A stretch of 57,773 bases of DNA, taken from assembly GCA_025201365.1 (NCBI GenBank), contig JAIXMF010000044.1, positions 1-57,773 on the forward strand, read 5' to 3'. Made by a program: the position numbers and the translations under genes. Each line of letters opens with the position of its first letter. The first letter of the stretch is position 1. This stretch comes from Syncephalis plumigaleata. Its lineage: Eukaryota; Zoopagomycota; Zoopagomycetes; Zoopagales; Piptocephalidaceae. Of this stretch, positions 10,290 through 57,622 are shown piece after piece. The notes under the pieces are model-generated. The model was not told the DNA's origin, did not search any database, and was given only the letters and a program-made list of their open reading frames with translations.

Positions 10290-11785
10290 TTAATGGCCAC
10301 CGGATTTTGGCATACTCATGCCTAGTTTGGCCTCTAATGGTGAGGTAGCACCATCTTGACCGAAAAGCGCGTCTATTTCTTCTAGTGACTTGCCCTTGGT
10401 TTCAGGCAGCATGAAGTAGACCCAGATAGCCATGATAATTAGGAAGATGGCAAAGGTAATGAATGCACCCCATGGTACAGCGGCGAGGAATTCAGGCACG
10501 AGAAGGGCGACGAGTGCGTTGAACAACCAGTTGGACGACGTGGTAAGCGACATTGCCTTGGCACGAATACGTAATGGATAGATCTCGGACGGGTAGATCC
10601 ATCCGATGGGACCCCAACTAGGTGCGAAACCAGCAACGAACAAGTAGAGCATGATGAGACAGACCCAAGGAACGGCTTTCACCTTGAATTCAGGCGAGTA
10701 GACGGCAATCATGACACCGGAAATGGTCATTGCAGCGGCCATGACAGCAGCACCGCCCAGCAATAGGGTACGACGACCGGTACGATCGACGAGGTACATG
10801 CCAGGAATAGTCATGACTACATTGACGATACCGCTACCGGCGGTGGCAAGTAGGGTGACGGAACGTTCGCTGAAACCGGCCGATTGCAAGATAGCTGGCG
10901 CGTAATACATGATGGCGTTAATACCGGTGAGTTGCTGGAACATCTGTAGCATGACACCGATGAGGACACGTCGCCACATGCCGTTGGCGCTGAGTTCGCC
11001 CCAGCCACCATCGCCGATTTCGCGTTCCAATCGGATAGAGTCTTGAATCTCGTCGAGTTCCTGTTGTACGGCAACACCATTGTCACCGCGTAGTTTACGC
11101 AATGCCTGTGCGGCCTGATCCACACGACCACGCGACATGAGCCAACGTGGCGATGATGGTAGGAATAACATGCCGATAGCCATACCGAAAGCAAAGACAT
11201 TCTGTAGACCGAATGGAATGCGCCAACTAGCGTCACCGACAATGGAGGCAGTACCGTAATTGACGAAGAACGCCACTAGAATACCAATGGTGATGGCCAA
11301 TTGTTGCATCGACACCACGAGACCGCGATACTCCTTGGGTGACACTTCCGATAGGTAAAGCGGCACCACCATGGAGAGTACACCGATGGCCAGACCGGAA
11401 ATGAAACGACCGGCCATCAGCAATGGTAGATCCTGAGCGAATGTTTGCATCATACCACCACCGATGAAGATGATGGCACCGGAGATACAAGCAAGACGAC
11501 GTCCAAATCGATCTATTAGAATAGTTAGCACTACTGATATTATTATTATTATTGTTGTTGTTTTATCAACTTACCAGCTACGTAGAATACACAGAATGAT
11601 CCTACAAAGGCACCGATCAATAGAATACTGACGGTAAGTCCTTTCTGTGTCTCGGAGGAGAAAACAAACGTTTCCTTGAACGCATCCATCACCAACACGC
11701 CACTAATGACGCCGACATCGTAGCCGAATAAAAGACCACCGATGGCTGACACCAGCGCGGTAAGAATCATATAACCACCACGCAT
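10290..11785 (-). CDS. Hexose transporter, MFS sugar-porter family
   Basis: This is a plasma-membrane 12-helix sugar permease, probably a proton symporter or facilitator for hexoses. Exons 11575-11785 and 10290-11512 give 477 residues. It contains the full set of family signatures: GGLLFGYDVGVISG in helix 1, DRFGRR in loop 2-3 (split by the intron), PSSPRWLMSRGR before the central loop, QQLTGINAIMYYAP in helix 7, DRTGRR in loop 8-9, PSEIYPLRIRAKA in loop 10-11, and LPETKGKSLEEID at the C-terminus. The start at 11785 (MRGGYM) gives a very short N-terminal tail. Just upstream lies a possible acceptor, and a matching donor (CG|GTAAGT) lies near 12890, so a ~1.1 kb 5' UTR intron is likely; reading the upstream exon through gives a stop, which supports this start. 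Other sugars or polyols cannot be excluded. Confidence 0.93.
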
Positions 11786-18512: not shown

Positions 18513-20267
18513 TTATTCGAATTTGTATCTATCGCAACTTCCTGGATGCAACTCGCACCAAGGCATACTAATGGGATCGGCACGTATGCCTCGTTGTAAC
18601 AATCGGTGTCGTAGCTTGTAGATACGCGACAGAGCATCTCGCGAGTTATACACCTGTCCATTAGCATCCCTGTGACCACTCCATAGTTTCTCGCCTACAG
18701 CACCGGCACGAGGCCAGACTCGCATGTCAAGCACGTAGGTATCGCTTTTCTCGGACCATAAAGCCACTTCACCGCCAAGTATATCGGGATGTGATCTATC
18801 CACATTACCAGTCGACTCAAGTCCCTCGATTATGTTGTGCGCGTACATGTGCTGCCATGATCTGTAGGAATTGCACTCTGGATCCTTATCGCCTACCGAC
18901 CACATCCAATCACCTTGACCACGATCGAGATACCAATGATTGCTGATGGATACAATGACGCGCAATCCTTGTTGCAATACATCCTTGATATGCTTTGCAC
19001 TCCTCCACACTTGTACGATCGTGTCATTGCTCATCCTAACCTTGTATTCAAGCAATGCTTCCTCCCAGGTGATAGGTGTTTTGTGATTCTCGTGTACTGC
19101 CGCATGTAATCCTTGGGCAAACCTACCAATAAGTTGCGAGGCGTTCATCCCGTGCTGCTCCATGTATTTGGCAATATGTGGTTCCTGCGTGTAACACTCT
19201 TGATTTACTTCATCGCCACCAACGTGGAAATAGGGGTCGGTGAACCAGGTGGCCTGCTCGTTAATAAGTTTGACGACAAGGTTCAACGATTCGGGGTTTG
19301 TCGGATCCAACTGGCCACTTGGTGGTTCGGCGGCGACGTCATTCCATTTCGGTTGCTGATTCGAGCAGACTATTAAATCGGGATAGGCGAGACCCCAGGC
19401 ATAGGTGTGCCCAGGCGTGTCGTACTCTGGAATCACACGAATACCACGTTCACGCGCATATTGCACGATATCTTGGACGTTCTTCTTGGTATATATCATC
19501 TTGGGACCATACGCGCCATACTCGGCTAAACGCGGCAGCACCTCGCTCTTCACCGGAAAGCTTTGCGAATCGGCAATATGCCAATGGAATACATTCAATT
19601 TTGTCATGGCCATACCATCCAGTTGACGTAGAATGTCGGCCACCGGATAATAGGAACGTGCCGTGTCAAGCAGTAGACCACGATGCACATACTCGGGTTG
19701 ATCATCAATGATAAGTGGCACGCCTGGTAAATATCGTTCGTGGTTGTTTTCCTCGTCTAGTCGACGTACTAACTGAGTAAATGTCTCGAGAGCATGTATG
19801 GCACCATAAACGCTATTCGCATTGATGGTAGTGGCACCGGTATCATCCACGGAAATCGAATAGGATTCGTCTGTTTTATCATCGAGATGCGTATTCGAAT
19901 GGAGCACATTCACCGTCGCTACATTAATTTCACCCGCACATGTATCGTCCGTTCTTGCCTCCAACGGTAGACCATCTGGTTCTGAGATGTATTTCTGGTA
20001 GCGCGTACAAGCTGACGTCAGCAGTTGTAGACTCTCGCCGTAGGGTGCATGACAGTCGAAATAGAAATCACTAGTTAAAATGAATGTTGCTGTGCCAATG
20101 CTATACTTGTAAGGTATAGGCCAAATATTACCAATAATCGCTTTGCTATTGTCGAGCATGGTGCTATTGGCACTAATTTCTAATGCAGTAACACCAGATA
20201 GGACGACTGTTGAAGCAACAGCTAGTATGGTTCTTGCTGTTAACATTGAATAGTTATAGAATATCAT
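18513..20267 (-). CDS. Secreted beta-N-acetylhexosaminidase, glycoside hydrolase family 20
   Basis: It removes terminal N-acetylglucosamine/galactosamine, typically completing chitin breakdown outside the cell. A single intronless frame of 584 codons starts with a signal peptide (MLTARTILAVASTVVLSGVT); translation may begin at 20267 or at the internal ATG at 20246, and the second gives a more usual signal peptide. The catalytic domain shows HRGLLLDTARSYYP, MAMTKLNVFHWHIADSQSFP, IPEYDTPGHT and the active-site HVGGDEV (Asp352 and Glu353), followed by TWEEALLE and a WP-rich C-terminal barrel end (EVALWSEKSD, DMRVWPRAGAVGEKLWSG). An N-terminal GH20b-like domain precedes it. The length matches fungal enzymes. 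It lies inside the secreted-protein block, next to the duplicated gene. Confidence 0.95.
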   Translation of the reverse strand: MIFYNYSMLTARTILAVASTVVLSGVTALEISANSTMLDNSKAIIGNIWPIPYKYSIGTATFILTSDFYFDCHAPYGESLQLLTSACTRYQKYISEPDGLPLEARTDDTCAGEINVATVNVLHSNTHLDDKTDESYSISVDDTGATTINANSVYGAIHALETFTQLVRRLDEENNHERYLPGVPLIIDDQPEYVHRGLLLDTARSYYPVADILRQLDGMAMTKLNVFHWHIADSQSFPVKSEVLPRLAEYGAYGPKMIYTKKNVQDIVQYARERGIRVIPEYDTPGHTYAWGLAYPDLIVCSNQQPKWNDVAAEPPSGQLDPTNPESLNLVVKLINEQATWFTDPYFHVGGDEVNQECYTQEPHIAKYMEQHGMNASQLIGRFAQGLHAAVHENHKTPITWEEALLEYKVRMSNDTIVQVWRSAKHIKDVLQQGLRVIVSISNHWYLDRGQGDWMWSVGDKDPECNSYRSWQHMYAHNIIEGLESTGNVDRSHPDILGGEVALWSEKSDTYVLDMRVWPRAGAVGEKLWSGHRDANGQVYNSRDALSRIYKLRHRLLQRGIRADPISMPWCELHPGSCDRYKFE

Positions 20268-21438
20268 TGGCGATAATTGACTATTGACAATCGTAAATGA
20301 TTCTTGTTGAAAATGAGATATGATAAGTAGAATTGCCTAGTAAATGGATATCAACAAATGACCATCATGGGACAAAGTGAAAGTATACTAATGAATGTAG
20401 TAGCATAATACCGATATTTAAAGAGTCAAGCATGTCAATCCCACTACAATCATCCGTGTACTGCGAGCATAGTAGCGTATACCGAATGGTCACGGATATC
20501 ATGTGGTGCTAGGCTGTGTCATGCTATCAACAAGATACAATAATGATAAATTGACAATCATTGAGCACATGATATGTACTTGTGCATAATAAATAAACTG
20601 CTATCAATAATGCTGACTAGTTGTGTCTACGCAATCATTCAAACACTAGTGTACATCAATGCGGTAGATGTATGCGATGTGTAGCAGAACATCTAGATCC
20701 AATTGTTAATGGTGCCACGATGTGCTATTGAAGAATACGTATCCATTGCAATTGCCTCTCTCTCTTTCTCTCTCTTTCTCTTTTCACATTTGACTACGTC
20801 CTCCGTAATCACTTGTATGTGTATCGAATCGTGTTTTCACCAATCCCACTGACCGCTGTTGTCATCACTCGCTTCCATGCTGTTGTATTGTGTAAGCATT
20901 AAAGTATAGAAACGTAGACGTTGTCTTTGTTCCTAGCATTACAGCAACACTAGATATAGTTATGACTGGTTGTAATCCAAGTGTAATGACAATATGTAGG
21001 AAGCATAGTTCTAAGGATGCTGACATATGTGATGAAATAGCACTCGTGTAATCAGTATTCGATGACCTCACTCGATATACAATGCTCATTCATGGTACAC
21101 GATAAGTAATAAGCATAGCTGGAGTAGAAGAAAGAATCGAACGATGAATAGAGTAGAAGAATGCCATATAGCATTACATATTTATTCAATCAATGAACCA
21201 GTCATTAGTTGATATTTATGTAATAGGACCATGGATGAATAGACGGAAGGGACTTGTAGATATATTTCTTGATCCAAGGAATAATGACTTGAATGGCATG
21301 GACACTAAAGGGTCTTGTAGTACCGATATATTCTTGACTTGAATACCTATAATATCTACTTGATGATGTCCTTGTCTTGCTCTGTAATCATAATGAATTA
21401 ATATGGGTATGATTATCTGTTGGATTATTACTTACTGC
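20268..21438. other. Spacer between the GH20 gene and micro-exon gene A (its 3' UTR included)
   Basis: No coding gene is supported; a 74-codon minus frame (20865-21089) has no features. A CT-rich tract lies at 20754-20786. On the minus strand just below the stop of gene A a further intron (about 21382-21435, GTAAGT to ACAG) appears to lie in its 3' UTR, followed by a short exon near 21360-21381. Confidence 0.45.
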
Positions 21439-24400
21439 TTAATGACGTCCCTGTAAAAATAACATGATCCATATTGTGGTTAGTACGTTTATATCGCAAT
21501 TGGAATGGTAGCTTACGATCTGTTATATCCAAGCATACATGGATTGCATGGCATACTATAATTAGTACACCATGCATTATCATTGGAATGATGACTTACG
21601 GTCTGCCATACAGGAGATCATGTGCCATACTACAATTAGTACATCTATACGTTGCAGTTTAAATGATGGCTTACCCTCTATTTACGCAAGCATACGTGAA
21701 TCATGCACCGTGTTGCTGTTAGCACCTTAGACAATAATAAGCATCTTTCACTTACCTCCTATTAGGCAAAAACATATGTAGATCAATTGTCGTATCGTAG
21801 TTAATACACCGTAGATAACAATGGGAATGATAACTTACGGCCTATCGTATCCATGCATACGTGGATCGTGTGTCACATGTCATAATTAATACATCATCGT
21901 GTATAACCAGCATAATGGCTTACTTGCTATTACATACGAACGTATGCGAATGTGCAATGTCATGATTAGTAACAGCATAGTTTATGACTGGAACATTGAC
22001 TTACTTCCTATCATACGGGGACAGAAGTGAATCGTATGTCATATCATGGTTAGTGCATCCATACATTTCGGATAGAATGATGACTTACTTTCTATCATAC
22101 AAGATCGTATGTGGATCATGTGCCATAGGGAGATTAGTACAACATAGATGAAGATTGGAAAGGTAACTTACAAGCTGTTATACGGAAACATACATGAATC
22201 ACGGGTCAGGTTGCAATTAGTACAGCGCATACTACAATCTGACTAATAACTTACAGCCTATCAAGTGCAAGCATACGCAGATCGCCAGTCGTATCGTAGT
22301 TAGTATACCATAGATAATAATCGAATTGATAACTTACAATCTATCGTGCAATAATATACGTATATCGTGTGTCATAGCGTGATTAGTATACCATAGATTG
22401 TAATCGAAATGTAAACTTGCCCACTAGCATACACAGAGATATGTGAATCATGTGCCATAGGGTGATTAGTACAGCGTAGACGAGGATTGGAATGGTAACT
22501 TACAGCCTGATATACGTAAACACACGTGGATCACGTGTCAGATTGCAATTAGTGCATCAACTCATTTTAATCGGAATGTTAACTTACTCGCTAATATATA
22601 CAAGTATATCAGCATCATGTGCCATAGGATGATTAGTACAGAGTAGATGAGGACTGGAAAGGTAACTTACAACCTATCATACGGGAACAAAAGTGGATCG
22701 TGTGCCATAGCATGATTAGCGTACTATAGTCTATAACCGGAATGGTAACATACCTCCTATCATGTGCCATAGCGTGATTAGTATATCATAGATTGTAATC
22801 GAAATGTTAACTTACAGCCTATCAATACAGAGACATACGCGGATCGTGTGCCATAATATGATCAGTACATTAATTTGTTATAATTAGAATGGTCACTTAC
22901 TTTCTATCATACAAGAACGTATATGAATCGTATGCCACAGTGTGATTAGTACTCGGCTCATTGCGGTCAGAATGATAACTTACGGTCTACCATACAGGAA
23001 TATATGCGGATCACATGCCACGTTACAATTAGTAATCATACACTGCAGCCAGCATGGTAACTTACATTCTATCATACAGGAACATACGTGGGACATGTGC
23101 CATAGTGTGATTAGTATCGCATTCATTCATTACAGTCAAAACGATTACTTACAGCCTAGTATACACAAACAAACGTGGATCGTGTGTCGTATTAATATCA
23201 ATACATCCATACGGTATCATCGGGAATAGTAACTTACGCACTGTTATCCACAAATGTATGGAAATCATTTGCCATATTATCATTAGTATCTCATTCATTA
23301 CGGCCAAAATGATAACTTACAAACTGTTATACAGAAACATAGGTTGGTTATGTGCCGATACTATGGTTAGTACTTATTCATTACGATTGAACTACCAACT
23401 TACGACCTATCATACACAAGCATAAGAAAATCATGTGCCATCTTACAATCAGTACCCCATAGGCTACAGCCAAAATGATAACTTACTTGCTATCGTAGGG
23501 AAATCATGTAGCACGGTACAATTAGTACAACATTCATTACAACCGGAATGATAACTTACCATCTATCATACAGAAGCATAAATGAATGTGTGTCATAATA
23601 TTATTAGTACATTATTCATTACGATCAGAATGATGACTTACGCCCTATCATACACAATCATATGTGAATTATATGCCGCATTACAACTAGTACTCATTCA
23701 TTACATCAAGAGTAGTAACTTACGTTCTATCATACAAGAACATATGTGGATCGTGTGCGATATCATAATTAGTATCTTGTTCATTATGGTCAGAGTAATG
23801 ACTTACCTCCTATCGTACATGGGCGTATGTGGATCATGCGTCATAGCGTGATCAATACTTCTTTCATTGTAGTCATGATGATAACTTACATCCTATCATA
23901 CAAAAACACGTATTGATTATGGATAATATTGTAATTAGTGTTTCGTTCGTCGCAATCAAAATAGTAACTTACAAACTATCATACAGGAGCAGACAAGAAT
24001 AATGAGCCACGTTACGATTAGTACTCGGTTCATTGCGGTCAGAATTATTACTTACGGCCTATCATACGAGAACATACGTGGATTATGTGCGATGTCATAG
24101 TTAGTACATCGATTCATTACGATTAAAATAGTAACCTACACACTGTTATGGGCAGATATACGTATGAATCATGTGTCACATCATAATTAGTATACAATAG
24201 TTTGTAAATGAAATGGTTACTTACACACTGTCATACCGGAACATAAGTATGGATCATGTGTCATATTATTAGTACACTGTGCATTGGATTGGAATGATGA
24301 CTTACTTTCTATCATACACAAACATACGCGAATCGTGTGCCATAACGTGATTAGTATATCGTACACTGGATTAGAATGATAACTTACGGGCTACCATAAA

Positions 24401-25417
24401 GGAACATATGTGGATCGTGTGCCATACCGTAGTTAGCACATCCATTCATTACGATTGAAATGATAACTTACAACCTATTATACGCGAGTGTACGTGGATC
24501 ATATGCCGTATCGTAGTCAGTACATTCATTCATTGCAGTAAGAATGATAACTTACGTTCTATCATACAGGAACATATGCGGATTGTAGGACATATCGTGA
24601 TTAGTGTCTCGCTCGTCGTAATCAAAATAGTAACTTACGACCTATCATATGAAAAACATACAGAGCCATACGTCATATTATAATTAATGCGTTAGGTATT
24701 TTAATCAAAATGATTACTTACTTTCTATCATACAGAAACATAGGTGGATTGTGAGCCATATTATTATCATTAGTACATCTATACATTACGATCAGAACGA
24801 TAACTTACAGTCTATCATACAGAAACATACAGAAACATCTTAGTTAGTATTCATTCATTGTAGTCAAAATGATAACTTACACCCTATCATACAAGAACGT
24901 ATATGAGTCGTGTGCCATATTAAAATTAGTACGCCATTTATTGCCATCAGAATGATAACTTACACACTGTGGTAAACAAGTGTATGGATTGTGTGACAAA
25001 CTGTAATTAGTATTTAGTTTATTACGATCAGAATGATAACTTACATCCCCTCGAGCTGGTAGTCACATATGATTTTGATTTATATTATCATTAGCATAGT
25101 GTCTGTTATGGTCAATAAACCAGCTTACTAATATGATCTAACAAATGAATATGTGGAATAATCGTTATACTATGGTTGGTGCATCAATTGATAGGGTCAA
25201 CAGGATAACTTACAGCGTCCAGCTAACAAATTGATAGGTAGAATAAACATTATAATGTGATTGGAGGATCGAACAATAGGCTACGATTAGTACATCAATT
25301 CAGTGGGTCATGGCCAGGTATACCACGACGGACTAAGGCGGGATTACCTTCAACGGCGACCAGACTGGTGAGAGCGACAACGGCGACGGCAATAGCGATA
25401 ATGGCAGAGAACTTCAT
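21439..25417 (-). CDS. Micro-exon gene A: secreted 87-aa protein from 48 exons, 43 of them one codon long
   Basis: Unknown family. Exon 1 (25324-25417) encodes a signal peptide (MKFSAIIAIAVAVVALTSLV) and ends in LVRR, a Kex2-like dibasic site. Exons of 9, 9 and 11 nt follow (25214-25222, 25129-25137, 25045-25055); leftover phase 1+9+9+11 returns exactly to frame. Next come 43 exons of exactly 3 nt, each AG|NNN|GT, and a last exon (21436-21450) giving Gly-Arg-His and TAA. The 264 coding bases are spread over 3,979 bp. The mature part is about 56 residues, with cysteines encoded at 24964, 24225, 24140 and 23238 (the middle two adjacent), then a helical Ala/Glu/Lys-rich end. One donor is GCAAGT (exon 22421); two are GTAGGT and GTATGT. 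Without the first splice the frame stops after 40 residues. This looks like a secreted effector-type peptide. Expression is not proven. Confidence 0.85.
21451..25044 (-). repeat. Tandem array of 44 related ~80-nt introns (83-bp period)
   Basis: On the minus strand each unit runs GTAAGT(T), about 30-35 nt, a branch point close to TACTAAT, a block like ATGGCACACGATCCACATAT, then TTCTTGTATGATAG, then a three-base exon. Intron lengths are 59-84 nt and mostly 78-82, with 80 the commonest. The shared 3' half shows that the introns are copies of one ancestor rather than independent gains. Single-base changes and a few short deletions (the 59-nt unit at 22757-22815) separate them. Confidence 0.88.
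21517..24966 (-). other. Coordinates of the 43 single-codon exons of gene A
   Basis: The lowest coordinate of each 3-nt exon, in transcript order (each spans that base to +2), is: 24964, 24881, 24809, 24722, 24639, 24556, 24472, 24388, 24306, 24225, 24140, 24056, 23973, 23890, 23807, 23724, 23642, 23560, 23487, 23404, 23321, 23238, 23153, 23066, 22984, 22901, 22816, 22754, 22671, 22588, 22504, 22421, 22338, 22255, 22172, 22089, 22005, 21924, 21839, 21756, 21675, 21600, 21517. None of the 43 codons is a stop. Confidence 0.85.
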
Positions 25418-27092: not shown

Positions 27093-27794
27093 CTAGTTTA
27101 GTATGCTATTTATCCGCGATTCAACCAATTTCGTCAGTACTACAGTATTCCTGACTGGGCCACTACTACGTAAGAAATTCACCATTGTTTCTATGGCTTT
27201 ATCCTTGGGTGACATTGAGTCTTGCCCGCTTCCTTGTTGTGTAAGTTTACCATTACCCAAAACCTTAAACATCAAATTCCCACTAGCATCGAAGCATAGA
27301 TCTATTTGATATTGATGTTAGTATTAGTTGGTGTGGCTTGCATCGTACTTACTATCTTGGTCAGGGTAAACTAGTAAGTTGTTCATATGCGCATACTCCA
27401 ATCCTAAATGACATTGTTAATATGGCATGGCTGTATTTACTATTTGATACTTACCTGCAAGTAATTGCGACATTAAAATATTGCATAAATTTGCTAGTTT
27501 TCTATTATCTATCACAGCAAATATGTTATCTACTCCATCCTCATATGTACCCACACATTCTGCCTTAGTTATTGCACAATAGTCCGGTCGCTTGCTGCCA
27601 GCTGGCGAGTTCTTTGGCATAAATTGTGTATTCCCACAAAGAATATAGCCGAGAGTGTTACGTCTGCTTAGTGTATGTCCTTGACGAGCACTTGGTAAGG
27701 AACTGCCCGTTGTCGTAATGGCTGCATTGGTGGTCGATGCTAGTAGAAGCATAGTAGTTGCGATAACGCCGGTCAAGCCTAGATTGAAGCGCAT
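27093..27794 (-). CDS. Small secreted protein, paralogue 2 (199 aa)
   Basis: Unknown function. Exons 27455-27794, 27353-27403 and 27093-27301 join to 600 nt. The signal peptide differs from paralogue 1 at one residue (Ile to Thr). The following SARQGHTLSRRNTLGYILC remains similar, and then the sequence departs until the LCF, LMF.V.G.GKL and ESRINSILN stretches of exon 3. The cysteine spacing at the start is similar (C in LCGNT, then YC and EC), with one extra cysteine (LCN). Equal exon 2 and 3 lengths show common descent. Both copies have intact frames and splice sites, so neither is an obvious pseudogene. Confidence 0.8.
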
Positions 27795-36921: not shown

Positions 36922-38905
36922 ATGAGTGAACAATCAGAGCAGACCACGAATGAAGTCGCATTACTATTTCCAAAGTCAGCTATACCTCAGCTGCCCGACA
37001 CTAAACGAATGCTACTGGCTCGTTTGTGTTTATTCGTAACAGAAACTAAAATGTTATGCGATACAAGTAATTGGAATAAACAATTCATGGAAACATTACT
37101 ACAGCATTTGCAGCTTGACGACCCACCAGGTAACTATTTGATAATGTGATAAGGAAAAGAAAATGGTAATAAAATAATCATGTTTGAACATGTGCAGTAA
37201 GAGAAGCTATCGCGGCTATGGCACATGACGACTTGAACAGTGAAGATATCGGCGAAATGGTTCAACGTATATTCGATGCAGTGCCAACATTAGAGAATAC
37301 GATCACGAATATGACGGTGAAGGAGGCACCAGCTGTGGTAGAGGAACCATCAGTCGTGGTAGAAGAGATTAACGATGATTTCATGAGTCATCGCGAGAAA
37401 GTAATGCTAGAGTTGATACTGCTCTATATTGGCATGTTATCCGAGGAGACGGAGGGTGTAGGAAAACCGGATCAAAAGCCTATAGCTCATACATCTTCTA
37501 CATCTACATCTACTAAAGCAAGTAAAGGTAAACTGGAACCGGGTGAGTATGATGCACGTTCACGCGCTGTTCTTTACTATCTAGCGGAACAATTACAACT
37601 ACCCCATGAGCGTATGAGTCATTTGGAGCGTTGGATCGCGCAACAATTGTACTTTGCTCGTGAAAATGCTGAAGCAAAAGCGAATACTTTACAGGATGAG
37701 GATGCAACGGAGGATGATGAAGCATCAACGTCGAAACTATCCAGTATGGCGCAAACCCTAAAGAAAGCCGTAAAGAATCGTAATAAACAAAGTAGAATAC
37801 TACGATGGACAGTGACTGGCACGTCGGTGATTATTGGTGCGGCAGCCCTTGGTTTAACGGGTGGATTGGCCGCACCGATGCTTGCCGTTGGTATGGGCGC
37901 ACTTGGTATTGCGGGTGCTCACGTCATCGCTACCGCGGGTGGGATCATGCTGGTGACCTCGCTATTCGGCGTGGCAGGTGGAGGATTGGCCGGCTATAAA
38001 ACGGCTAGACGTACGGGTGGACTAAAGGAGTTCACATTCATACCATTACTACCGGATGCGCATCTACCGCTTATTCCCTCGTTGCACGCGACCATTGTAG
38101 TGCCCGGTTATTTGAAGCCAGAGACCGATGCCGCTACGCCGTGGCGTGATCCCTGCGCCACACATATGGCCGATCGTGATGTTTACGCGTTGGCCTACGA
38201 CACGGAAGTACTACAGGAATTGGGCAAGGCATTCCGTGAATTTCTCGCGACTGAAGCGGCCGGTTTTGCCGCAGGACAAGTGCTCAAGCACACGGTACTT
38301 GCCGCGCTCATGACACCGCTCGCATGGCCTATGGCACTTGTTAAAGCGGGTAAACTCATCGATAATCCATGGGGTATGGCTATCGATAGAGCGCGTAAAG
38401 CGGGTCACGTACTAGCCGATGTGCTGCAGGAGCACGTACAAGGTCATCGTCCGATTAGTCTGGTCGGCTATTCCGTGGGAGCATTGGCGATTTTCGAGTG
38501 TCTTCAAGTATTGGCGGATCGTCATTGTTACGGGATCATTGATTCGGGTAAGCTTATTATTATTATTATTATTATTAGCTTGTTGGTATGTCTCCATCCT
38601 ATAAATGTATACCTAATCGCTGGCGAATGATAGTGGTTCTACTGGGAGCACCCATTGAAGATGAACCGGAACCGTGGAATAAAGCGAGATCTGTCGTTGC
38701 TAGACGATTCATCAATGGATACGCCGGCAATGACTGGATATTGGCGTTTCTGTGTCGAGTGCACGATGCGCAATTTAAAGTAGCAGGTCTACGCCCGATC
38801 AAGGTGGCTGGTGTGGAATCTGTCAATTTGGAACATTTGATTCCTGGACATTTAGGTTATCGCAAGCAATTAGATGCGATTATGACGCATATCGGTATGA
38901 TTTAA
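36922..38905 (+). CDS. TMCO4/DUF726 family membrane-associated alpha/beta hydrolase, 609 aa
   Basis: This family (human TMCO4, yeast Mil1) is a membrane protein with a lipase-like fold; the substrate is not firmly known. Exons 36922-37129, 37198-38547 and 38634-38905 join to 1,830 nt. A helical N-terminal half is followed by a hydrophobic Gly/Ala-rich membrane hairpin (VIIGAAALGLTGGLAAPMLA, then ALGIAGAHVIATAGGIMLVT). The nucleophile motif GYSVGA has Ser495, after which DEPEPWNKARSVVARRFING and the C-terminal HLGYRKQLDAIM are typical of the family. I chose the ATG at 36922 (MSEQSEQTT); an in-frame ATG at 36844 would add a hydrophobic Phe/Leu stretch that looks like translated 5' UTR. Its stop is convergent with micro-exon gene B, about 270 nt away. 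Confidence 0.9.
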
Positions 38906-39175
38906 TGCGTGTACGATGATCATTTAACAAGTATCAATTAGTATTAGATTGGAATAAAATATTATTGTAATAGGATCTGTATATGTGATATTTATTCGTT
39001 CAAGAATAACGGATAAATGACCTAAATTCCTATTTAGCTAAGGCTAGCAGGGAGGAATGATGGCTGAATAAGCTAGGTACGCGCTCTTCTTGTGTGTCCT
39101 ACGGTTGCTTGACTGTTCCAGTTGGCGTGACAGACGAATTAGCCGGGGCAGCACCTGTGGTCTTCCTCGGTATGT

Positions 39176-42100
39176 TCAAGGTAACGGTTTTAGTGGCCAA
39201 TGCTATAGCAACCGTTAATGCAACGTATACAGTCGAATGACTCGTTTAATCATTACCCTCTAATAGGGTCCAGTGTTGATTTCATGTTATAATAGCGACA
39301 TAGTTAGCTGTTGTTACCACTATCGGATTGAGCTCATTGCTAGCGTATGGCTTACTCGCTATTCGATGGAATTATAAGGTAGCATAGTGTCAATGTATTT
39401 GTATGCTAGTGAAATGCTTAATTACTTACAACCTAATAGATATCGTAATGTAAATAGAAATATACCAGTTCATTTATCTGTTCTTGTATCATGCAGCAAC
39501 AATAATAGTGACTTACAATCTATTGGTAATTAGGCATACTAATCGATACGATTACTATAGGTGACTTACATTCTATGATTATAATATACGTGATTATTGC
39601 ACATTCAACGGTTAGTGGAATAATGATAATAGTGCATGCTCATTGATTACCATCTATTATCGGTTAGATTGTTTGTTGATTCACAGGTTGTAATGCCATA
39701 TATTTGCGTCATTAGCTATATGCAATGATTGACTGACTTGATAGCTTACAGGCTACATTAGAAATAGATGAAAATAAGATACGTGTGATGTCATCAGTGA
39801 TATTTCCCTACTATGTGTTCATTTATCCGCTTACTATCTAGATACACGGATGTATCGATTGTGTATTCCTATTAGTTGACTCGTGAATCCAATGGAGATA
39901 ATGACTTACAGGCTATCAAGTAACGATTAGTAATACGTAGAATGCATCAAAGTAAACTTACGATCTTTGAGAAGTCAAGGAATAAAGCGACACATGTATG
40001 CATAGCAATTAGTACCACTCGTAAGGATAGTCAAATCTATCGCATCATTTCTCTTACGTTCTGAGTATTCGTATAAACCGAATTAGCATTGATGTGTCGT
40101 TTGTCTAAAAAGTAGTATTACGCTTACCAGCTACAGTTATATCATAGTAATTGTTTGATATTGCATAGATAGATACGTATGTCGTTTAATACGTGAGTAG
40201 CCAATAGCATAATTGATGAACGTACCCGCTATTGAAGTGTGAAGTGCGTTGCATTGTTGAAAGTATTGCAAGCTATTAACGGATGAAGCATAGTCGGGAA
40301 ATAATGCTTACCGGCTATTCACATTCAAAATAATAACGTCAATACTTGGTGATAATCGTTATCATAGCTATAGGTGACTTACAGTCTATAACAATGATGA
40401 CGGTCAATGCATTACAAATAGGTACATTAGTCTACATCACTAGGTTATCGTAGTGTACTAACATTCTAGTAGTAATAGGAGTAGTAGCAATATTGATTAG
40501 TTTTCCGGTATTTTTCCTGTTGATTCAATGCTATAGCCTCTTACTTTCTTTAAACATATATGTATGGATATGGATACCGTGTTAGTAATAGACTTCATAT
40601 TAGCGATCAGTTAAGCCAGTTTGACTAGTATAAATTACCATCTATAAGACAATTAGTGATGCTATGCATGAAATACAAATGAAAGAGAACTTACTGGCTA
40701 TCGACAAGCGTAGGGTGATTCAATGTTAAACACCGTTAGTGTGGTGGATATCTCGGAATGATCATGAATGAAGAACTTGCCTGGTCCCTCTGTGTAATGT
40801 AAAGTGAAGTGTTATTAGCGCGTGTCACCTTAATGACTAAATTGGTCACGTACTCTCTAATTGTGTCGATTTACGGCAATCAAATCACGTTACGAATTAG
40901 CGAATGGTATACGCGGCAGTGTGCACGTATAACTTACTCCCTGTTAGTTAATGTGTTAGTATGGCAATCACTCAGATGGCAATATCACTTACATCCTAGT
41001 CATGCAATAGTGACCGTTGCAATAAAAGCAATTATTAGTCATTGTAAATGATATCAACGCGTAGTATCCCACCGGCTATTCGTCCATCATGTTTACTCAT
41101 TAGTATCGTGCAATTCTATCATAGAAGAGGTTGTAGCTTACTTGCTAATTATTAATAAGATACACGACGTAATATCAGCGCACGATCGATACTAGCCGCC
41201 TTTAATTCAATGACACTCACGACCTATTAAGAAGCATTCATGTTAATCACGTGTATGCATATGTATGGAAGCCAAATTGTATCTTACAATCTATAGGCAT
41301 TGTTGATACCATACAATTGGTAAACAAACACAATGATTAACATTATCACGCTAGTTGTATGACTGGACATACCGGCTATGAAATAAGGCAGTCACAAATA
41401 CATATCCATTGTTACTACGCATCCGTATAATGGTAAATAACTTACGACCTAGCATAGCGTTAGCATCATGCAATTGTCTAATTAATGTATGTGTTTATAA
41501 CAACTACGCATCACTTACATAATTCTCTGTCTAAATGATTAAATAAAGAAACGAATAAGCAACGGGAAGATACGACCGAGTAAAATGTGATATAATTTCA
41601 GCTTACCACCTATTATAAGCAAGCAAAATTAGCTATAAAAAAGGAAACTACAACGCTACTGATACTTGCATTCTTTCATAGTCATTTCGCATGGATCATA
41701 TTGCGTAGTGTGATGCGGTTATTGCATGTGTGTCGAATTAGTATAGATGGAAACTTACGGACAAGCTGTGCTAAATGAGCGTGTTCGCGTGTAACGAATT
41801 CAGCGAGTAATAAATGTATACATGCGGCCATACAACTTACGATCTAGTATAGCCGCACGATGCAGATAAGGTTCATGTCATGGAAATACTTGTCATTATA
41901 CTATGCCATTATATTGAGCTTTAACTTACAATTTTCTAATTTCCATCGTTAGTATACATCAACAAATAGGTAGGATTATCAAAGCACTTACCGTCTATTT
42001 ATAGCAATATTTAGGGAGTGGCAATGATTAGACGATCATACCAACTGGAATTCGTATGGCTTACATGCTAAATATCAAATGAAATAAGAAAAGTGTTGGT

Positions 42101-44236
42101 ATCGCATGTGGAAAATAAAGGCAGGCTAACACTTACATGCTATTTATAGCAATAATTAGACGATCATATCTCAGCTAATACTCGTATGGCTTACATACTG
42201 ATTGCCGAAAGTAATAAAAAGCGAGCATTAGTGTTGCGAAAAGATATTAGTACAGAGTTAACCTACAGTATTTGCTTGGATATGCTTTATAGGAAGATAA
42301 AATGTTAGCGTAACATATACAAATCTTCGCTAAGCATTGGTTATCAGGCACTTACCCACTATTATTAGGAAAGCAGTTAGCTATCATTGTTAAGTAGAAT
42401 ACCACCATGTCTACTCACAGCCTAATACGATGCGTATTTTAGCCGGAAACATCGTTGTGTTGATGTAAATTAGTCATGACGCTTCTAGCTAGTAATTCCT
42501 TCGGTCTCTCTTACATTCTTTCAATGAAACGTTAGTATTCTATCAGTTTTGATCGTAGGGGCAACTTACCCCCTACAACGATTCAGTTCATATACGTGCA
42601 AAGTATTGCGACATGATTAATGCAATGCGATAGTTCTTGCTTCACTGGCTTACTGGCTATGATTGCAGTACATGTTAGCACCCGTTATTCATCATGAATC
42701 AAGAGATTCACTTACTATCTCCTTGTTTCTGGTCTTGAAAAGGCAAACATTTCATGAATAATCATCAGTATTTCGAGTGCGGCACAACTATTAAATAGAC
42801 GCTACTGTTACTTACTTCCTCCCACTAGAAAATAAAAGGTTTCTTAGTGATATTCATTGCTGATATTAAACGATATACACACCTTTAATGATTTTAGAAT
42901 AGACACACATACATACGCACACAAAATAATACAGTTGAGCTATTAGTCTATGATAATTGATCAATGCTGCTTACGAACTATAGGGAAAAAAGCAATTAAT
43001 AATCATTCGTTACGATGTTAGATCAATTGTAGTAGGTGTTTATGCAATAGTAGCTTACATCCTATTTGCAATAATCGATGGTCAAGGGTTCAATGAATTC
43101 GATTGGTACGGCGTTCTTATTCCAAGTTTGTTATCCTCGAGTACTACACACCTTCTATTAATTATCGATAATGCCAATGGAAAAGTAAATGTTAGTATTC
43201 CATTTATATTTTAGCCTGCTTTCTCGCGTGACATTTCTCGACTTACTGGCTGTCAAGTGGTCATTGTCATAATAAATGTAATTAGTTACACGAGAGGAAT
43301 GTTCGATACAATTCACTTACGGCCTACATCCACAATAGATCGATGTATTTATACGAGCACAATCGGATTAGTCATCCATCGGCAAGGGTAGAAATCAAAC
43401 TTACAAGCTGTATTATCCAGTCAATAACTAGGCGATAAGCAATAGTGTAATCACTCACCGGCTATTACCATCAATCGACGTAGATATGAATATGTCTCGA
43501 TGTTAGCGCCATTCATCATTTCTGATGAGGTATGACTTACGACCTATTAGCATTAAGTGTCAGTATAATACCAGTTGTCATTGCAGCAATAGATAGTAAG
43601 TATCGTGATATATAACTTACACGCTATTTATATTGATTGATTGATTGATTAGGTTAAACAGGCAATGCGATCAGAAATGGACCAGCAACATTGACAGACA
43701 CTTACAGACTAATGTCAAAGCGTGTATAATTAGTCGATTGGCATTCTAGTCTATAAATAAACTACTTACAAACCGCTACAATCAATGGAATGATAGCACA
43801 GGTCATTAGCAATGATCATCGCGACAATTGATTGTGTGATGACTCACAACCTAAACAGATTGATGAAATGGGTATCGCAACAATCAATTGTAAGTTTAGC
43901 ACATTTGACTTGCTATCAATACGTATTGCGTACACTCTAATTGCACCATTTATGGTTAAGTAAGGCAATTATTACTGACGATGTATAGGAATGGAAATCA
44001 AATCAAGCTTACTAAGCGTTAATCCTAATGCAATGCATGTATCGCACGTTAAGATCACTGTTTATACTTTGTAGAATACACGCTTACGGGATATCAAATG
44101 ATCTAGTAAACATTATCGTTATCATAATTGGTATTGCAAGCTAGACATGTTCAATTAGCCACTTACAATCAGATATGGCATTAATGCCCATAATATTTAC
44201 GGAAAGAGCGAGGCATAATGCTACAATAGACTTCAT
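39176..44236 (-). CDS. Micro-exon gene B: secreted 123-aa protein from 63 exons, 51 of them one codon long
   Basis: Unknown family. Exon 1 (44167-44236) encodes a signal peptide (MKSIVALCLALSVNIMGINA). Exons 2-4 (44088-44102, 44013-44024, 43914-43936) restore phase zero; after that every exon is a multiple of three: 51 of one codon, plus 43770-43775, 42816-42824, 42267-42284, 41930-41935, 41759-41770, 41519-41530 and 40781-40789. The last exon (39176-39202) ends HWPLKPLP and TGA. Only 372 coding bases lie in 5,061 bp. The mature chain is about 100 residues, basic, with many Pro, Ile and Arg and a single Cys. Donors are more relaxed than in gene A: GTGAGT, GTATGT, GTACGT, GTTAGT, GTGTGT, GTAATN and two GCAAGT. 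Four of the longer exons have alternative AG acceptors; the in-frame one was taken. It has the same design as gene A but no visible protein similarity. Expression is not proven. Confidence 0.8.
39257..43850 (-). other. Coordinates of the 51 single-codon exons of gene B
   Basis: The lowest coordinate of each 3-nt exon, in transcript order, is: 43848, 43706, 43621, 43541, 43459, 43405, 43321, 43247, 43152, 43059, 42975, 42716, 42654, 42570, 42515, 42419, 42356, 42195, 42137, 42065, 41992, 41841, 41607, 41446, 41373, 41288, 41221, 41142, 41073, 40993, 40938, 40854, 40695, 40639, 40545, 40463, 40383, 40312, 40226, 40128, 40058, 39962, 39910, 39835, 39750, 39651, 39570, 39517, 39430, 39356, 39257. 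No codon is a stop. The introns are 49 to about 99 nt except one of 150 nt (42825-42974). Confidence 0.78.
42882..42883 (-). other. Candidate recursive splice site (zero-length exon) in gene B
   Basis: On the minus strand the acceptor ATTAAAG is followed directly by the donor-like GTGTGT, in the middle of the only double-length intron of the gene. Using it would split 150 nt into pieces of 92 and 58 nt, each of ordinary size here, without adding any codon. GTGTGT also serves as donor for the exon at 43152. Confidence 0.45.
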
Positions 44237-51600: not shown

Positions 51601-54600
51601 GCTAATAGAAATCTATATAATGAAGTAAGTAGATGAGTAACAATCATGCTAGTAACCATTAGTGATTAATATAATAATCATAGAATAATGAAGATGAAGA
51701 AGATGACGATGAAGATGCTAAATCATTCTCATCTCCACCATGTTTTGCTCATCAATTAGCGAGTATGCATGAATTTGCTATGCGTGGTGATCTCGATAGT
51801 AATGAAGATGAAGAAGGCGACGATGATTATGATAAGGAGATGCAACAACATCGTTTACTATTCCCTAGATCTACTAATGTCGATCATATGATGGATAGTA
51901 GTACTGATTCTGCGTTGCCATCACCGTCTATTGACACCATCACATCTAATGATTCGGATATGGCTAGACCTGTATCAACGCATAGCGTTGAACGATCATT
52001 ATTTGGACCGCGTGACAATAATGGTGGTGGTCTACATGAACAAGGAGGCAGCAGTATATTCTACACATCATCGACAACGGGTATTGACAATGCAGATACC
52101 ACGATACCCTCCTCTGACCTATCCTCGGAACGACTGGATCCAATTCGATTCAGTTTATTAACACGTATATCGGATCAGTTATACTCGCAAGAGATGCGTA
52201 ATAACTTTGGTGTACCCACCGTACTTGCTGTTGGTGAATGGTTAGCCATTGGTACATCCAGTGGTATGGTAGTACTCTACGATCATGCACAGAATCTACG
52301 TACTATACTACGTCGTAAGTTGATATGGTTATGTTACTATGTTGTTATGTTGCTCATCTTGCTTGTGTATAGATATGGGTGTGGTGACTGCCGTGGCCGT
52401 TTCAGCACATGGTCTATTTGTATTGGCGGGATTCGCTGATGGATCTATTGTAGTATGGGATGTACGCAAGAACATCATTATTCGACACATTGAACCCATT
52501 CCTATTGAGTCGAACTCGCCACCTGCATCGCCTTACTTGCAACAAATGAAGCATACAGCACAGCGATTGATCAAGTTAACCACGACTGTTGCCAATGCTA
52601 ATACTAATACTACCACTAGTGGCACAACGAGTACCACAGCATTGTCAGCATCAACACGTAATCATCAAGGACATGAATGGGGATCGGCTATTCTACATGT
52701 AGAATTCGTAGGACAACAATCCTATGAGATTATTAGTGCTGATGATCAGGTAATGAATGATATGATGACTATTCTATGATATTTACATATATATTGTATA
52801 TTATATATTGATAGGGCCTAGTATTCCTACATCGTTTGGCTAAAGTGCCGGTTATTCGGCCAGTGGACACCATTCACATATTAGGACGTCGTCGTCGTAA
52901 TGGCCCATTATCGATGACGGCACAGGGAATGCAACCACCTAGACAAGCAGGCACCATTCTATGCATGTCATCTCTATCCACTGGTGTAATTAGTCATCCT
53001 GCCGATACTTACTCGTTTATGGCGATTACTACTCCCATTAAGGTGAGTCGTACTTTATAGTAATACATTAACAGCGTATTGATTGATGTTGTTATTAGAT
53101 GCTCATTATTAGTACGAAGCCACGTATTGAAACACATTTCAAGGTGATGCGATCCGAGAAATTAGTAGCAGCCACCATGGAAGAGGAGGGATTTATGGCC
53201 ACCTGTGGATCTACAGCATGGTATTCCGCTACACTTGATGAAGGAGGTAAGTTTCATTCTATTAATTAGTTTATTTACTGATTGATTAATTATTTGCAAG
53301 TAGAAGCGGCCGATCCATTACTCGCTTACAGTTGGGATAATCGATTAGCGATCCTGCGTGTCATTGGTGATTCTGTTGATAATGTGGATACATCAGCATC
53401 CAAATCATCAACATCACGTAGTACTGCCGGTATACTCGGCATGAAACGTGCCAATCTACCGCGTATTACATTTGTGTATGTTAATGAATGGCGAGGACCA
53501 TGTCCCATTGTTGCTATGCAATGGGTAACACGTAAAGTAAGTAATACACATAATGTGTATACATATAAGTAGACTAATGGCATTACATTCAATGTTAGAT
53601 GCTTGTTTTGTATACGAGTGAAGATGAAATACTCGTATTCGATCGAGTGGCCAATCAAGTTACCGAACGTTGTGATCTACGTGCTATTCGACTTGTTAGC
53701 AATAATCGATTAATGCCACGTCGTGATCATGCATTGTATCATAATAGCAATAACGAGGAGGAGGAAGCATGGCCTGAAGTTGAAATGGAATTGGCCTACT
53801 ATCAAAGTGTACGAGCACACAAAGGACGTGTTTATTTACTAGTAAGTTCTAGACTATTTTAGTAGTTAATAATAATCATCATATTAATCATATTATTAGG
53901 GAGTCGATCGATTATGGATGGGATTACCGTTAACGTGGTCTGATCGTATCGATGCTTGCGAACAGAATGGTGAACTACTAAAGGCATTGGATATCGGTGT
54001 GGCATTGATTAAAGGCGCACCTGGTCTATCCACTGTTGGCCTACCGGATGATGACCTACAACGACGTGTAGTTGTGGGTGCACGCTTGATGCAATTAATG
54101 CGTAAAGCCACCAGTATGACATTTGCCATTGAACGTGTCGGACAACGTCATCCGCGTAGTTGTCGCGATTTAGCGCGTGCCTGTATTGACGCCAGTCTAT
54201 GTATCGGTATTGAGTCGTTCTTATTCGACGAGATTTACGAGGCATTCCACGAGCATCATTGTCGGCATTGGTTCCTCGGTGGATTAGCCAAGGCGATACG
54301 TCGTGGTCGTATTCGTTTATTACCACCGGTGGTAGCGCAGGATTTAATCGTATATCTACGCGGTCGACCTAGATTACTTGAGACCGTGTTACTACAGCTG
54401 GATCTCTCCACGCTAGATATCGATACTGTGGTGTCGCTATGTCGTCGCGACGGTCTATGGGATGCGCTCATTTGGGTGTGGACACGCGCCGTACACGATT
54501 GGATCAGTCCCACGGTGGAACTATTAAAGATGGCGCGTTTATTGGCGGGTAGTTCGGAACGACGTGTCAAGGAGATTCTCGACAAGTTACTCGCCTACTT

Positions 54601-57600
54601 TGACCACGTACTACAAGGAAGATGGTTCCCATCACCGATTGTCTCGAGTCAATCCGCCTCGAATCGCTACTGGGACGAGCAACGCGCCATTATTAATGAT
54701 GAACAAGTGTGCAACGAGGCGAAGCAATCGATCTATCGCTTTATATTCTCACTACAAGCAATCCGTTGGCCGGAACATCACGAACCAAATGAGATGGTGT
54801 CCACAGATGGTATATTGAAACAAGTGATTGGCCATGAAGATATTAATGATCTACGACCCTACCCGTACCTGTCACTATTACTTGATTATGGTCCAAAGCG
54901 ATGGCTCGACACACTAGAAGCATCGTTTAAGGATGAGAAATTCTTTGATCAATCATCGACATCGACATCGGATGCACCGGATGCGCCGGATGTATCAGAT
55001 GCACCACCTGCAGTAACACGACAAATGATTGTAGACGCGCTAATTCGATGTGTGTCACCTTATGCACGCGATAATTTTGCTACTGTATCAGCGACATTTG
55101 TATGTATATTCCTTGCTCGTCAACTACACCATCATCATAAGCATATTCACTTGGAGTCGGTCACGATTGAGGCCATTCTATTACGATTAACCACGGACAC
55201 GACCACCACATTGCACGGTGCTACCGGAGATGCACGTCAAGCGGCCGTGCAAGAACTACTAAAGGTCTACGTATCACCACACACCAAGCAAATGATCGAA
55301 CTGTACGAGCAGGCCGGATTCTACCGTGTACTCGAGACCGTCTATCGTAATGAACACAATTACGGCAAGGTAGTCGAGACGTATCTACGTGATATCGAAC
55401 GACGTCATCAAGTATTCGATTGTATACGTCGTTTACTAAGCGATAAAAGTCGATCGGTAGAGAAGGGTCGTTTATTGGAGAAGAAACGCGCGCACGTACG
55501 TGCTTCCGTTATGGAATTGATGCCGCAACTCGTTAGGGTAGACGGTAGTCAATGCGCCAAATTAGTAACCGATCTATTCGAGGAGCAACACGAGGAGGTG
55601 GTTAAACAATTGGAACCAGATGGCACGCTTGTCTACGCGTATCTACGCGGTCTATTCGAGGCCAGGCAACGTATTCGACGTGCATTAATGAGAAGACGTG
55701 CACGTCAAGCGAGCGATCTAGCAAGTTCGAGCACGACCTTCGATCCTAGTTCGAGCGATCAAACGACCATGAACCAATTGAACAGTCTACCGGGATTACC
55801 CCAATTACTCGGACGATATATCGAGTTGCTATGCGAACGACAACCCTCGCAAGTACGCGCGTTCTTAGCAGATCACGAAGAAGATGGCATCTGGCTTGAT
55901 AGCGCATTAACCGTTTGTCGTTACTACGAGGTGACCGATGCAGTCGTGTGGATACTAGAACGTCGTGGCGAGCTTGGTGCAGCACTCGAGGCAATCCTAG
56001 TCAAGGTGCAAGATTGCGTCATTCAAGTGACGAAACAATTGGCGCGTGAAGCGAGCGAACAATTCAACGATGCCGCTGCCTCCGTCACAAGTGACTGGCA
56101 TCCACATTGGTCTAGTAGTGAACGACCACATCCTCATCATCAGCATCATCGATTCATGGTATCAATTACACCACGTCCACCCACCACAGATGTTTATCGT
56201 GCAGTCGATGCCATTGTATTACATTTGCGTATGGCGGTAGAATTATGTGAACGAGTTAGTACACGCGTATTGACTACTACAGCTGATACACCGGAACATA
56301 GAACGCTAGAACGACAAAGTGAAGATTTATGGTTTATGCTGCTAGTGCAGTTCGTTGATGCTTATCGTACACTGATGGCTGCAGCTACTGAACAGCATCG
56401 ACCATCGCAATCGCAATCATCGTTCGCTCGTCGTTACAGGCATGATGATACGTCATCAGTCTCGTCGGCAGCATCATCGCCATCACCATCGATTATACCA
56501 CCTGCGCAAGAACCACTCGATCCATCCAGTCAAATGATACGCGGTGGACTACATGAAAGTTTAACGGAACTATTACAAGCAACGGCATCATCGGGTGTTT
56601 CATTACCTAAACTATTACTACGTCTAGTACAATCGGAAGATGATGATCCCAATATTATGACTACTAATAGTAATAGCAATGAAGGAGATGATGATGATGT
56701 GGAAGAGGATGAAGATCATATGTCGACGAAAAGTCATCAAGAATCGACGCCACGTCTATTCGCCGATCTACGTGATGTCTTTTTCGGTATGCTTGATCTG
56801 TACAAGTTCGAAGCGCAATTACGTCGTGTTGCTCATCGACTCATTGAATCGGACGTGTTTAGCGAGATGCGTCTCTCCGTGCACACTCGAAGCCAAGGCT
56901 GGCGTGTAACGAATGGAGGTGACTGCGATCGATGCCATCGTCGTTTATGGTTAGACGCGCGTAATCCACAGGCACGTATTCCCGTTAATGCCATGCAAGT
57001 ATTCGATGCACCACTTCGTTGGCCACACCATGCCACAACTACTACCACTAGCACTACTAGTAGTAATGGTAAAGAACCAGCAAATGGTAAACGAGCAATG
57101 TCTACCTTTTCATCGCTGCCTACTCTAGGTAAACGTGCAATGAGCTACGATCGACGTATGTCATCCAGTCATAGTATTATGGGTAGTAACACCATGATGC
57201 TCATGACATCCTCTTCTCTCTCGACGACAGCAAAGGAATTATCCGTCGTTTCCTATTGTTGTGGACATGCTTTCCATCAAACTTGCTTACTACCTTCACC
57301 ACCTAGTAATACAAACAACACAAACAACACAAACAGCAGTAATAATGGTGGTGGTGCGCTACATATATCACGACAAAACTCGCTCGTGTCCTCATTGTCT
57401 ATGCAAGGCCGGTTATTGTCGCCACCTTTGTCGCCCTCTACCTCATACCAACCACCGTTACCCGGTAATGTAGCGAGATCGCCTTATCCATCGAGTGATC
57501 AACAAAGCGAAGAAGCACAAGAGATTCAACTCTTCTCGGCATCATCACGACCATCCGAGTCATTGAACGTACCATGTCCCGTATGTCATCCACCACGCTT

Positions 57601-57622
57601 ACTAAATCATCAAATAATATAA
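45624..57622 (+). CDS. VPS8: VPS8, CORVET tethering complex subunit, with giant N-terminal extension (3,763 aa)
   Basis: VPS8 is the Rab5-binding subunit of CORVET, which tethers endosomes for early fusion. Thirteen exons (45624-47513, 47576-48472, 48540-50741, 50799-51050, 51108-51189, 51239-51624, 51684-52314, 52373-52749, 52815-53042, 53099-53246, 53304-53536, 53599-53841, 53900-57622) join in frame to 11,292 nt. Residues 1 to about 2,050 are disordered, first acidic, then Ser/Thr-rich. From ~2,060 there is a WD40 propeller (VGEWLAIGTSSGMVVLYD; VLAGFADGSIVVWD), then the clathrin-repeat-like helical region with the VPS8 signature LDIDTVVSLCRRDGLWDALI, and a C-terminal RING-H2 (CDRC near 3532, CCGHAFH near 3643, CPVC near 3748). 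Known VPS8 proteins are about 1,300-1,450 residues, so the extension is exceptional. Exon 11 could also start at 53301 (AAG acceptor). Whether translation begins at 45624 or later (45717) is open. Confidence 0.9.

Follow-up and report, generated by a model that had tools for sequence, protein, structure and literature searches.

The closest described counterparts of the gene reported here are the micro-exon genes (MEGs) of schistosomes and the bicycle genes of aphids. MEGs are described as encoding secreted parasite proteins with a signal peptide and few conserved motifs besides it, from numerous tiny exons, most of them divisible by three in length; the usual size is 15 bp (range 6-81 bp in the article body and 3-81 bp in its abstract), with 10-20 exons per gene and introns of 0.1-5 kb (PMC10526429). 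Bicycle genes are presented as coding for putative secreted effectors that are very divergent, with micro-exons nearly all in one phase, and megacycle genes as having more than 100 micro-exons (PMC9168663). Moreover, the 1-nt exons reported for APC11 and VPS55 indicate that spliceosomes can use exons of this size (PMC8831610). Here, we analyzed a 57,773-nt contig (JAIXMF010000044.1, henceforth the window) of the fungus Syncephalis plumigaleata (Zoopagales), a member of a mycoparasitic genus (PMC6784888), in which a gene on the minus strand (25417..21439) consists of a 94-nt exon 1, three short exons (9, 9 and 11 nt), a run of 43 exons with 3 nt each and a terminal exon. Judged from sequence, this gene and its relatives are very probably genuine protein-coding genes in which most exons comprise one codon, a reading to which we assign a probability of about 0.88.

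Like MEGs, the family of the window gene combines very short exons in multiples of three with a signal peptide, and secretion of its products is predicted. It differs from MEGs in that 565 of the 618 exons modelled are 3 nt long, with up to 54 per gene, in that its introns mostly span 70-85 nt, and in belonging to a different kingdom. The exons of bicycle genes are longer than one codon, and bicycle proteins carry a paired CYC motif. As far as their published description goes, bicycle and megacycle genes resemble the present family in their secreted-looking, divergent products and in having many micro-exons in one phase; that phase is 2 in bicycle genes, whereas it is 0 in the class of the window gene and 1 in a second gene of the window, and the products are short here. 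Introner elements are many similar short introns in one genome; the introns found here are likewise similar and short, but they are set one codon apart, the distance being nearly always 3 nt. In the descriptions available, isolated 3-nt and 1-nt microexons of animals and plants occur singly or in pairs, without a consecutive one-codon run, and MEGs and bicycle genes, although alike in outline, are portrayed without one codon per exon throughout. No report of genes made of consecutive one-codon exons was found in the open-access literature searched, subscription papers and preprints lying outside that scope; neither 'intron' nor 'exon' appears in the main text of PMC10386755 or of PMC6784888. 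A protein search with alignment A1 of the family returned 27 of 959 candidates, comprising S. plumigaleata and unnamed proteins; this search involved no direct comparison with MEG sequences.

The first-pass annotation of the window, made from its letters alone, had proposed a run of 43 consecutive 3-nt exons. This run was confirmed: a scan for AG-NNN-G(T/C)A(A/G)G(T/C) returned 42 units at 24966..21519 with a spacing of mostly ~83 bp, and the 43rd exon is GAG at 22756, whose donor is GTATGT. The 9-, 9- and 11-nt exons said to restore the frame, the 3-nt array and the last exon were recovered with a splice model that scores donor, acceptor and branch point and is blind to frame; the signal-peptide exon before them measures 94 nt. 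At 21677 there are two possible acceptors (TAGAGGGTAAGC), and the frame-blind model chose a 1-nt exon; given the choice between two AGs, this exon was assigned by hand to AGG. The exon lengths sum to the anticipated 264 coding bases (94+9+9+11+129+12) with an in-frame stop in the last exon, and conceptual splicing spells a product of 87 residues, MKFSAIIAIAVAVVALTSLVAVEGNPALVRR followed by AGRYHITRGDCGTKVNVPKCCAFDENGMQVFCANTKAEVRAWIALKEQAERTIGRH. Introns in the array measure 59-84 nt, with mostly GTAAGT donors, TACTAAT-like branch points and TAG or CAG acceptors. An additional intron is predicted in the 3' untranslated region (UTR), after the terminal exon, and the TAAGC(A/G) terminal exon is also found in paralogues.

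The exact 3-nt spacing of these signals far exceeds chance. Counts of YAG-N(k)-GTAAGY within the array are 40 for k = 3, 2 for k = 9, 1 each for k = 11, 15 and 30, and 0 for all other k from 0 to 30; on the plus strand of the array the motif is absent for k 0-12. In 500 dinucleotide shuffles of the array, the count at k = 3 averaged 0.05 with a maximum of 1. A branch-point-like word was present in 487 of 544 units, the pattern used to select them prescribing AG and GT(A/G)(A/G)G(T/C), and units of these arrays carry the branch point, acceptor and donor that characterize a spliceosomal exon.

The gene is one of many such genes and shares the window with another, and its exon 1 ends in a dibasic site, none of which the first-pass annotation had recognised. 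In the whole genome (G000; 32.6 Mb, 383 contigs), TGATAGNNNGTAAGT gave 458+396 matches versus 6+9 for a reversed control pattern. A looser branch-point-to-donor pattern gave 1556 matches with a 3-nt gap (control 84), 58 with a 4-nt gap (control 137) and 130 with a 6-nt gap (control 85), part of the last excess being accounted for by a two-codon-exon array in contigs C58 and C223. Loci L022 (C58 10437-12722, minus) and L023 (C223 612325-614608, minus) have 6-nt exons following the 3-nt array, which spell dipeptides, e.g., RP, PR, NP, KP and TP. Since the strict pattern detects only 291 of 567 modelled 3-nt exons, we roughly estimate that the assembly may hold two to three thousand of them, alleles included. 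A genome search with exon 1 yielded 150 scored matches at E <= 0.001 among 178 candidates, of which some, in longer open frames, may represent conventional genes. The GT donor stands at the identical 94-nt position of exon 1 in 17 other loci.

For detailed modelling, 25 stretches of 4-10 kb matched by the 3-nt or the terminal-exon pattern were sampled (L009-L033, later joined by L036-L038), and 544 three-nt units from these loci served to train the splice scores. In frame-blind models of 22 arrays, window included, 565 of 618 exons were 3 nt long, the last exon of each array being excluded and internal exons being limited to 36 nt. Thirteen of the 18 models with a 94-nt exon 1, again including the window, maintain an open frame that begins at the ATG and closes with an in-frame stop of the terminal exon. 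The models of L022, L023 and L025 end without a terminal exon, and exon 1 was not found at L016, L010 and L033.

The absence of stops among the array codons, claimed initially for the window gene, extends to the whole family. Among 491 three-nt codons from 20 arrays (near-identical copies L023 and L025 dropped) there are 0 stops, against 17.5 expected from base composition by position, and the same concatenated exons contain 2 and 46 stops in the other two phases. Genome-wide, the 23 matches to TGATAGTRRGTAAGT comprise 21 TGG, 1 TAA, 1 TGA and 0 TAG. Exon 1 closes with xPxLxRR in 14 of 15 aligned rows, L017 having KRKRTSH instead, and we take this dibasic RR site to be Kex2-like. A signal peptide followed by a dibasic site ahead of the mature part is the arrangement predicted for Kex2 processing, and it is found in these sequences. 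The pattern C..CC..C occurs in 11 of the 15 aligned products, including L025, a near copy of L019; examples are CGTKVNVPKCCAFDENGMQVFC in the window gene, CGTWLTWDPARKMCCDQRDLLLETDRIAC in L017, CTGVCCNVGKDGC in L018 and CEW...CC...CWDPR in L026 and L029. Deviating products are those of L012 (C..CC up to the frame break), L020 (CC..C.C), and L015 and L024 (no cysteine), while outside the alignment L013 lacks cysteine and L028 has two single ones. Usage of the Cys codons is balanced (26 TGT, 24 TGC). A protein search with the spelled window product gave 6 matches with E <= 1, each of them in S. plumigaleata, and the protein database searches pointed to no function.

An intronless counterpart was reached via the deposited protein P0012. 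Locus L034 (copy, L035) encodes ...LQAANQHLDLFGAAAFEKRQKD... as a single open frame without introns, and array L010 spells LEKANQH-L-D-L-F-G-T-I-A-F-E-KK-Q-K-D, with 13 residues from 3-nt exons. Compared by eye with L034, those 13 codons are identical in 8 cases, synonymous in 3 and different in 2. When the L034 protein was aligned to L010 with splicing allowed, the score was 119.3, whereas 200 shuffles gave 62.9 +- 6.9 (maximum 83.5) and the reversed protein 56.6. L034 also has 3' UTR sequence in common with the window gene, and would therefore be either an intron-free ancestor or a retrocopy. In P0012 itself, the intronless frame of L034 is linked to an exon 1 that lies ~2 kb downstream; this fusion may be an artefact of annotation.

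Another deposited protein, P0004 (BDF22DRAFT_685769, partial), corresponds to 43 exons in L036, 40 of them of 3 nt, as counted from protein-to-L036 alignment and not from the coordinates of the deposited model, and 40/40 are present in the frame-blind model. It uses one 27-nt exon that the L036 splice model does not have. P0004 and a second deposited model, P0011, may be either transcript-based or gene-finder output, and the model codons missing from them (see below) would be either skipped exons or annotation gaps. P0020, P0023 and P0026 are frames of 39-50 aa that resemble read-throughs of a similar exon 1 (..TPVLDRRG), which suggests that related species carry a similar exon 1 or architecture. 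In P0022, a similar signal and RR site are joined to a 143-aa protein.

Judging by its sequence, the window contig appears to be a haplotig, the second allele of a part of C112. The window gene and L037 show 102 differences in 4457 aligned bases, the second gene and L038 188 in 5317. For the window gene, 1 of 267 exon sites differs (6.5 expected) compared to 90 of 3712 intron sites, and this sole exon difference, CGA/CGC in exon 4, is Arg/Arg. For the second gene, there are 7 differences in 426 exon sites (four synonymous; 15.0 expected) and 165 in 4699 intron sites, and its apparent allele keeps 63/63 donor and 63/63 acceptor dinucleotides. Likewise, the near-identical pair L019/L025 differs at 3 of 111 sites in 3-nt exons versus 252 of 3189 in introns (8.8 expected), and L027/L036 at 0 of 141 versus 14 of 3729 (0.5 expected, too few changes to inform). 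Five pairs were compared, and in four of them, the uninformative L027/L036 included, changes are fewer at exon sites than at those of introns.

In L019/L025 and L022/L023, the codon changes CTC/GTG, GAT/ATT and AAT/CAA involve two bases and lie beside introns with several differences. TGG/AGG is a one-base change at the ill-aligned end of L019/L025, and one 6-nt exon differs among these pairs (GAAGTT/GAAATT). Differences per intron are over-dispersed, with a variance/mean of 3.9 (39 introns) and 3.6 (43 introns) against a Poisson maximum of ~2.2 in 20000 draws. Because intron differences are patchy and several codon changes fall beside or in the patches, this suggests conversion between units. 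Introns are ~69% identical within and between genes (518 introns, 18 arrays), the mean being 0.702 for neighbours, 0.687 for distant introns of the same gene and 0.687 for introns of other genes. Where introns are at most 80% identical, the adjoining codons agree in ~0.8 of 3 bases; the figure is 0.96 for intron identities of 80-90% and 1.31 above 90% (16 pairs). Tandem unit duplication was rejected as a simple origin, as neighbouring introns are hardly closer than distant ones and codons are near random with respect to intron similarity. The pattern of intron and codon similarity therefore fits neither simple duplication nor simple insertion, and the strict 3-nt exon length beside introns that are alike but codons that are unlike stays unexplained.

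In the second gene of the window (44236..39099, minus strand), a chain of 3-nt exons scores 180, any other length from 1 to 12 at most 21. A fuller model, with exon lengths restricted to multiples of three and with the first and last exon fixed, reads without interruption from ATG to TAG and gives a cysteine-rich, secreted-looking protein of 141 aa. Its introns are non-repetitive, and the architecture therefore does not need intron similarity. Phase 0 is also stop-free (0/53) and was overruled by the frame that the first and terminal exons set together with those of 15 and 12 nt; with moderate confidence, the 3-nt exons appear to be read in phase 1, as a cysteine-rich open frame. The deposited P0028 is probably the model for the allele of this gene.

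Table 1. Position of the two micro-exon genes and of neighbouring features in the window.
Feature	Position	Strand	Remarks
Window gene, exon 1, 94 nt	25324..25417	minus	MKFSAIIAIAVAVVALTSLVAVEGNPALVRR + one base; predicted signal peptide, dibasic site
Window gene, exon 2, 9 nt	25214..25222	minus	Frame-blind splice model
Window gene, exon 3, 9 nt	25129..25137	minus	Frame-blind splice model
Window gene, exon 4, 11 nt	25045..25055	minus	Sets reading frame to phase 0; frame-blind splice model
Window gene, array, 43 exons of exactly 3 nt	21517..24966	minus	One codon each, phase 0; spells CGTKVNVPKCCAFDENGMQVFCANTKAEVRAWIALKEQAERTI
Window gene, terminal coding exon GGACGTCATTAAGCA	21436..21450	minus	In-frame TAA at 21441..21439
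Window gene, 3' UTR stretch (approximate limits)	21252..21381	minus	Also present in intronless L034; compared by eye
Second gene, exon 1, 70 nt	44167..44236	minus	MKSIVALCLALSVNIMGINAISD + one base, predicted signal peptide; same start in P0028
Second gene, internal exons (62, of which 54 measure exactly 3 nt)	39257..44102	minus	Read in phase 1 (moderate confidence)
Second gene, terminal exon	39099..39202	minus	Ends TAG; same C-terminus in P0028
GH20 hexosaminidase	20267..18513		Pfam
Sugar transporter	11531..10290		Pfam
DUF726	37218..38630		Pfam
Vps8-like	53918..57622		Pfam

Several observations weigh against the reading of these loci as one-codon-exon genes. The loci were preselected for the 3-nt or terminal-exon pattern and the scores were trained on their own 3-nt units, so that the proportion of 565 in 618 describes these arrays and not the genome. 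L012 has a 2-nt exon and is frame-broken, in L014 the first intron measures 499 nt and a stop comes early, exon 1 is not intact in L009, L011 and L028, and no array model was obtained for L030 and L031. Five codons (TGC, CCT, TGT, CGG and GAA), the two initial short exons and the end are missing from P0004, and P0011 compared by eye with L024 gives a similar picture, some model codons being missing. P0028 agrees with the second-gene model only at both ends, at 48% identity, which makes the middle of that model uncertain. CC adjacency is only moderate (12 observed; within-gene shuffle mean 5.7, maximum 14), and the 3-nt exons of L022/L023 show no constraint, with 4 differences in 114 sites versus 73 in 3133 for introns (2.7 expected). 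L033, considered as a second array matching the intronless peptide, was rejected, as its score against L034 lay within the shuffle range and was not significant (64.6, z 1.8; 100 shuffles, mean 52.5, maximum 75.3). Searches of Pfam (best E 0.046) and PDB (best E 0.018, at the signal-peptide part, profile positions 5-34) gave nothing convincing.

Could the arrays instead be stepping stones, recursive splicing or decoy sites through which one long intron is removed, their 3 nt never being translated? The splice-like signals strongly common to the units would suit such a role, as would the difficulty of defining a 3-nt exon from both sides at once. However, we consider this very unlikely given the 0 stops in 491 phase-0 codons versus 2 and 46 in the other phases, the use of both Cys codons (26 TGT, 24 TGC) at shared positions, the intronless locus with the same peptide and synonymous differences, and the fewer exon changes between apparent alleles; moreover, recursive sites are not known to leave a residual exon. 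Even more improbable, in our estimation, are a satellite-like tandem repeat with chance splice-like words or the remnants of dead genes. Units of ~83 bp, introns ~69% alike within and between genes and some frame-broken loci speak for such an origin, but intron length varies while exon length hardly does, the second gene has 54 three-nt exons without repetitive introns, stops are absent and 63/63 splice pairs are preserved in the apparent allele of that gene. A satellite repeat without any coding role was rejected in view of the absent stops, the phase contrast and the allele comparison. The family, the open frame, the cysteine pattern, L034, the alleles and P0004 all support, at the level of sequence, what the first-pass annotation had put forward, namely, a real one-codon-exon gene for a small secreted cysteine protein.

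A further proposal accepts the exons as real and concerns only their origin, by repeated insertion of one introner-like intron type between the codons of intronless genes. Introns that are ~69% alike, next to codons hardly more alike than random where the introns are similar, are consistent with it, and an intronless relative exists. Nevertheless, blind insertion predicts exons of 1, 2 and 4 nt in mixed phases, whereas 565 of 618 are exactly 3 nt; the intronless copy could be a retrocopy, and the patchy intron differences in two near-identical pairs (3.9, 3.6) point to conversion between units. Insertion is possible as an origin, albeit doubtful.

For the one-codon-exon genes, we envisage that the ordinary spliceosome would join the exons, removing introns one by one and probably in sequence, because two spliceosomes could hardly share one 3-nt exon. 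The spliced preproprotein would then enter the secretory pathway, where a Kex2-type protease would cut after RR and leave a disulphide-bonded peptide of ~15-60 residues. The encoded products are thus envisaged as secreted, probably Kex2-processed peptides, for which a role in mycoparasitism or parasite-host contact appears likeliest. Since nearly all exons are one codon in one phase, changes of units keep the frame and peptides would be easy to vary: skipping, duplicating, deleting or converting a unit would alter the peptide by whole residues, with the frame intact. We tentatively propose, as a speculative extension, a codon-cassette system, in which the ~83-bp unit would act as a movable one-codon module, diversity would arise by conversion or unequal exchange together with frame-neutral codon skipping, and one gene would yield a population of peptides.

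In these fungal genes, exons would come close to the shortest useful length, with two introns flanking most single codons of the mature product; one of the two window genes has 62 internal exons and a product of 141 residues, and exon 1 has 150 scored matches in the genome. The smallest joinable exon, the order of splicing and its error rate become directly testable questions. Annotation can miss or scramble such genes, as seen from P0004, P0011 and P0028, which are incomplete or at odds with the splice models, and the family draws attention to secreted peptides of mycoparasites as an unexplored group. A frame-neutral unit would make gain, loss, swap and skip of single residues cheap, skipping being our inference.

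Elsewhere in the window, a small secreted-looking open reading frame of 125 aa (27794..27417, minus strand) has no Pfam match, while the neighbours assigned by Pfam are listed in Table 1.

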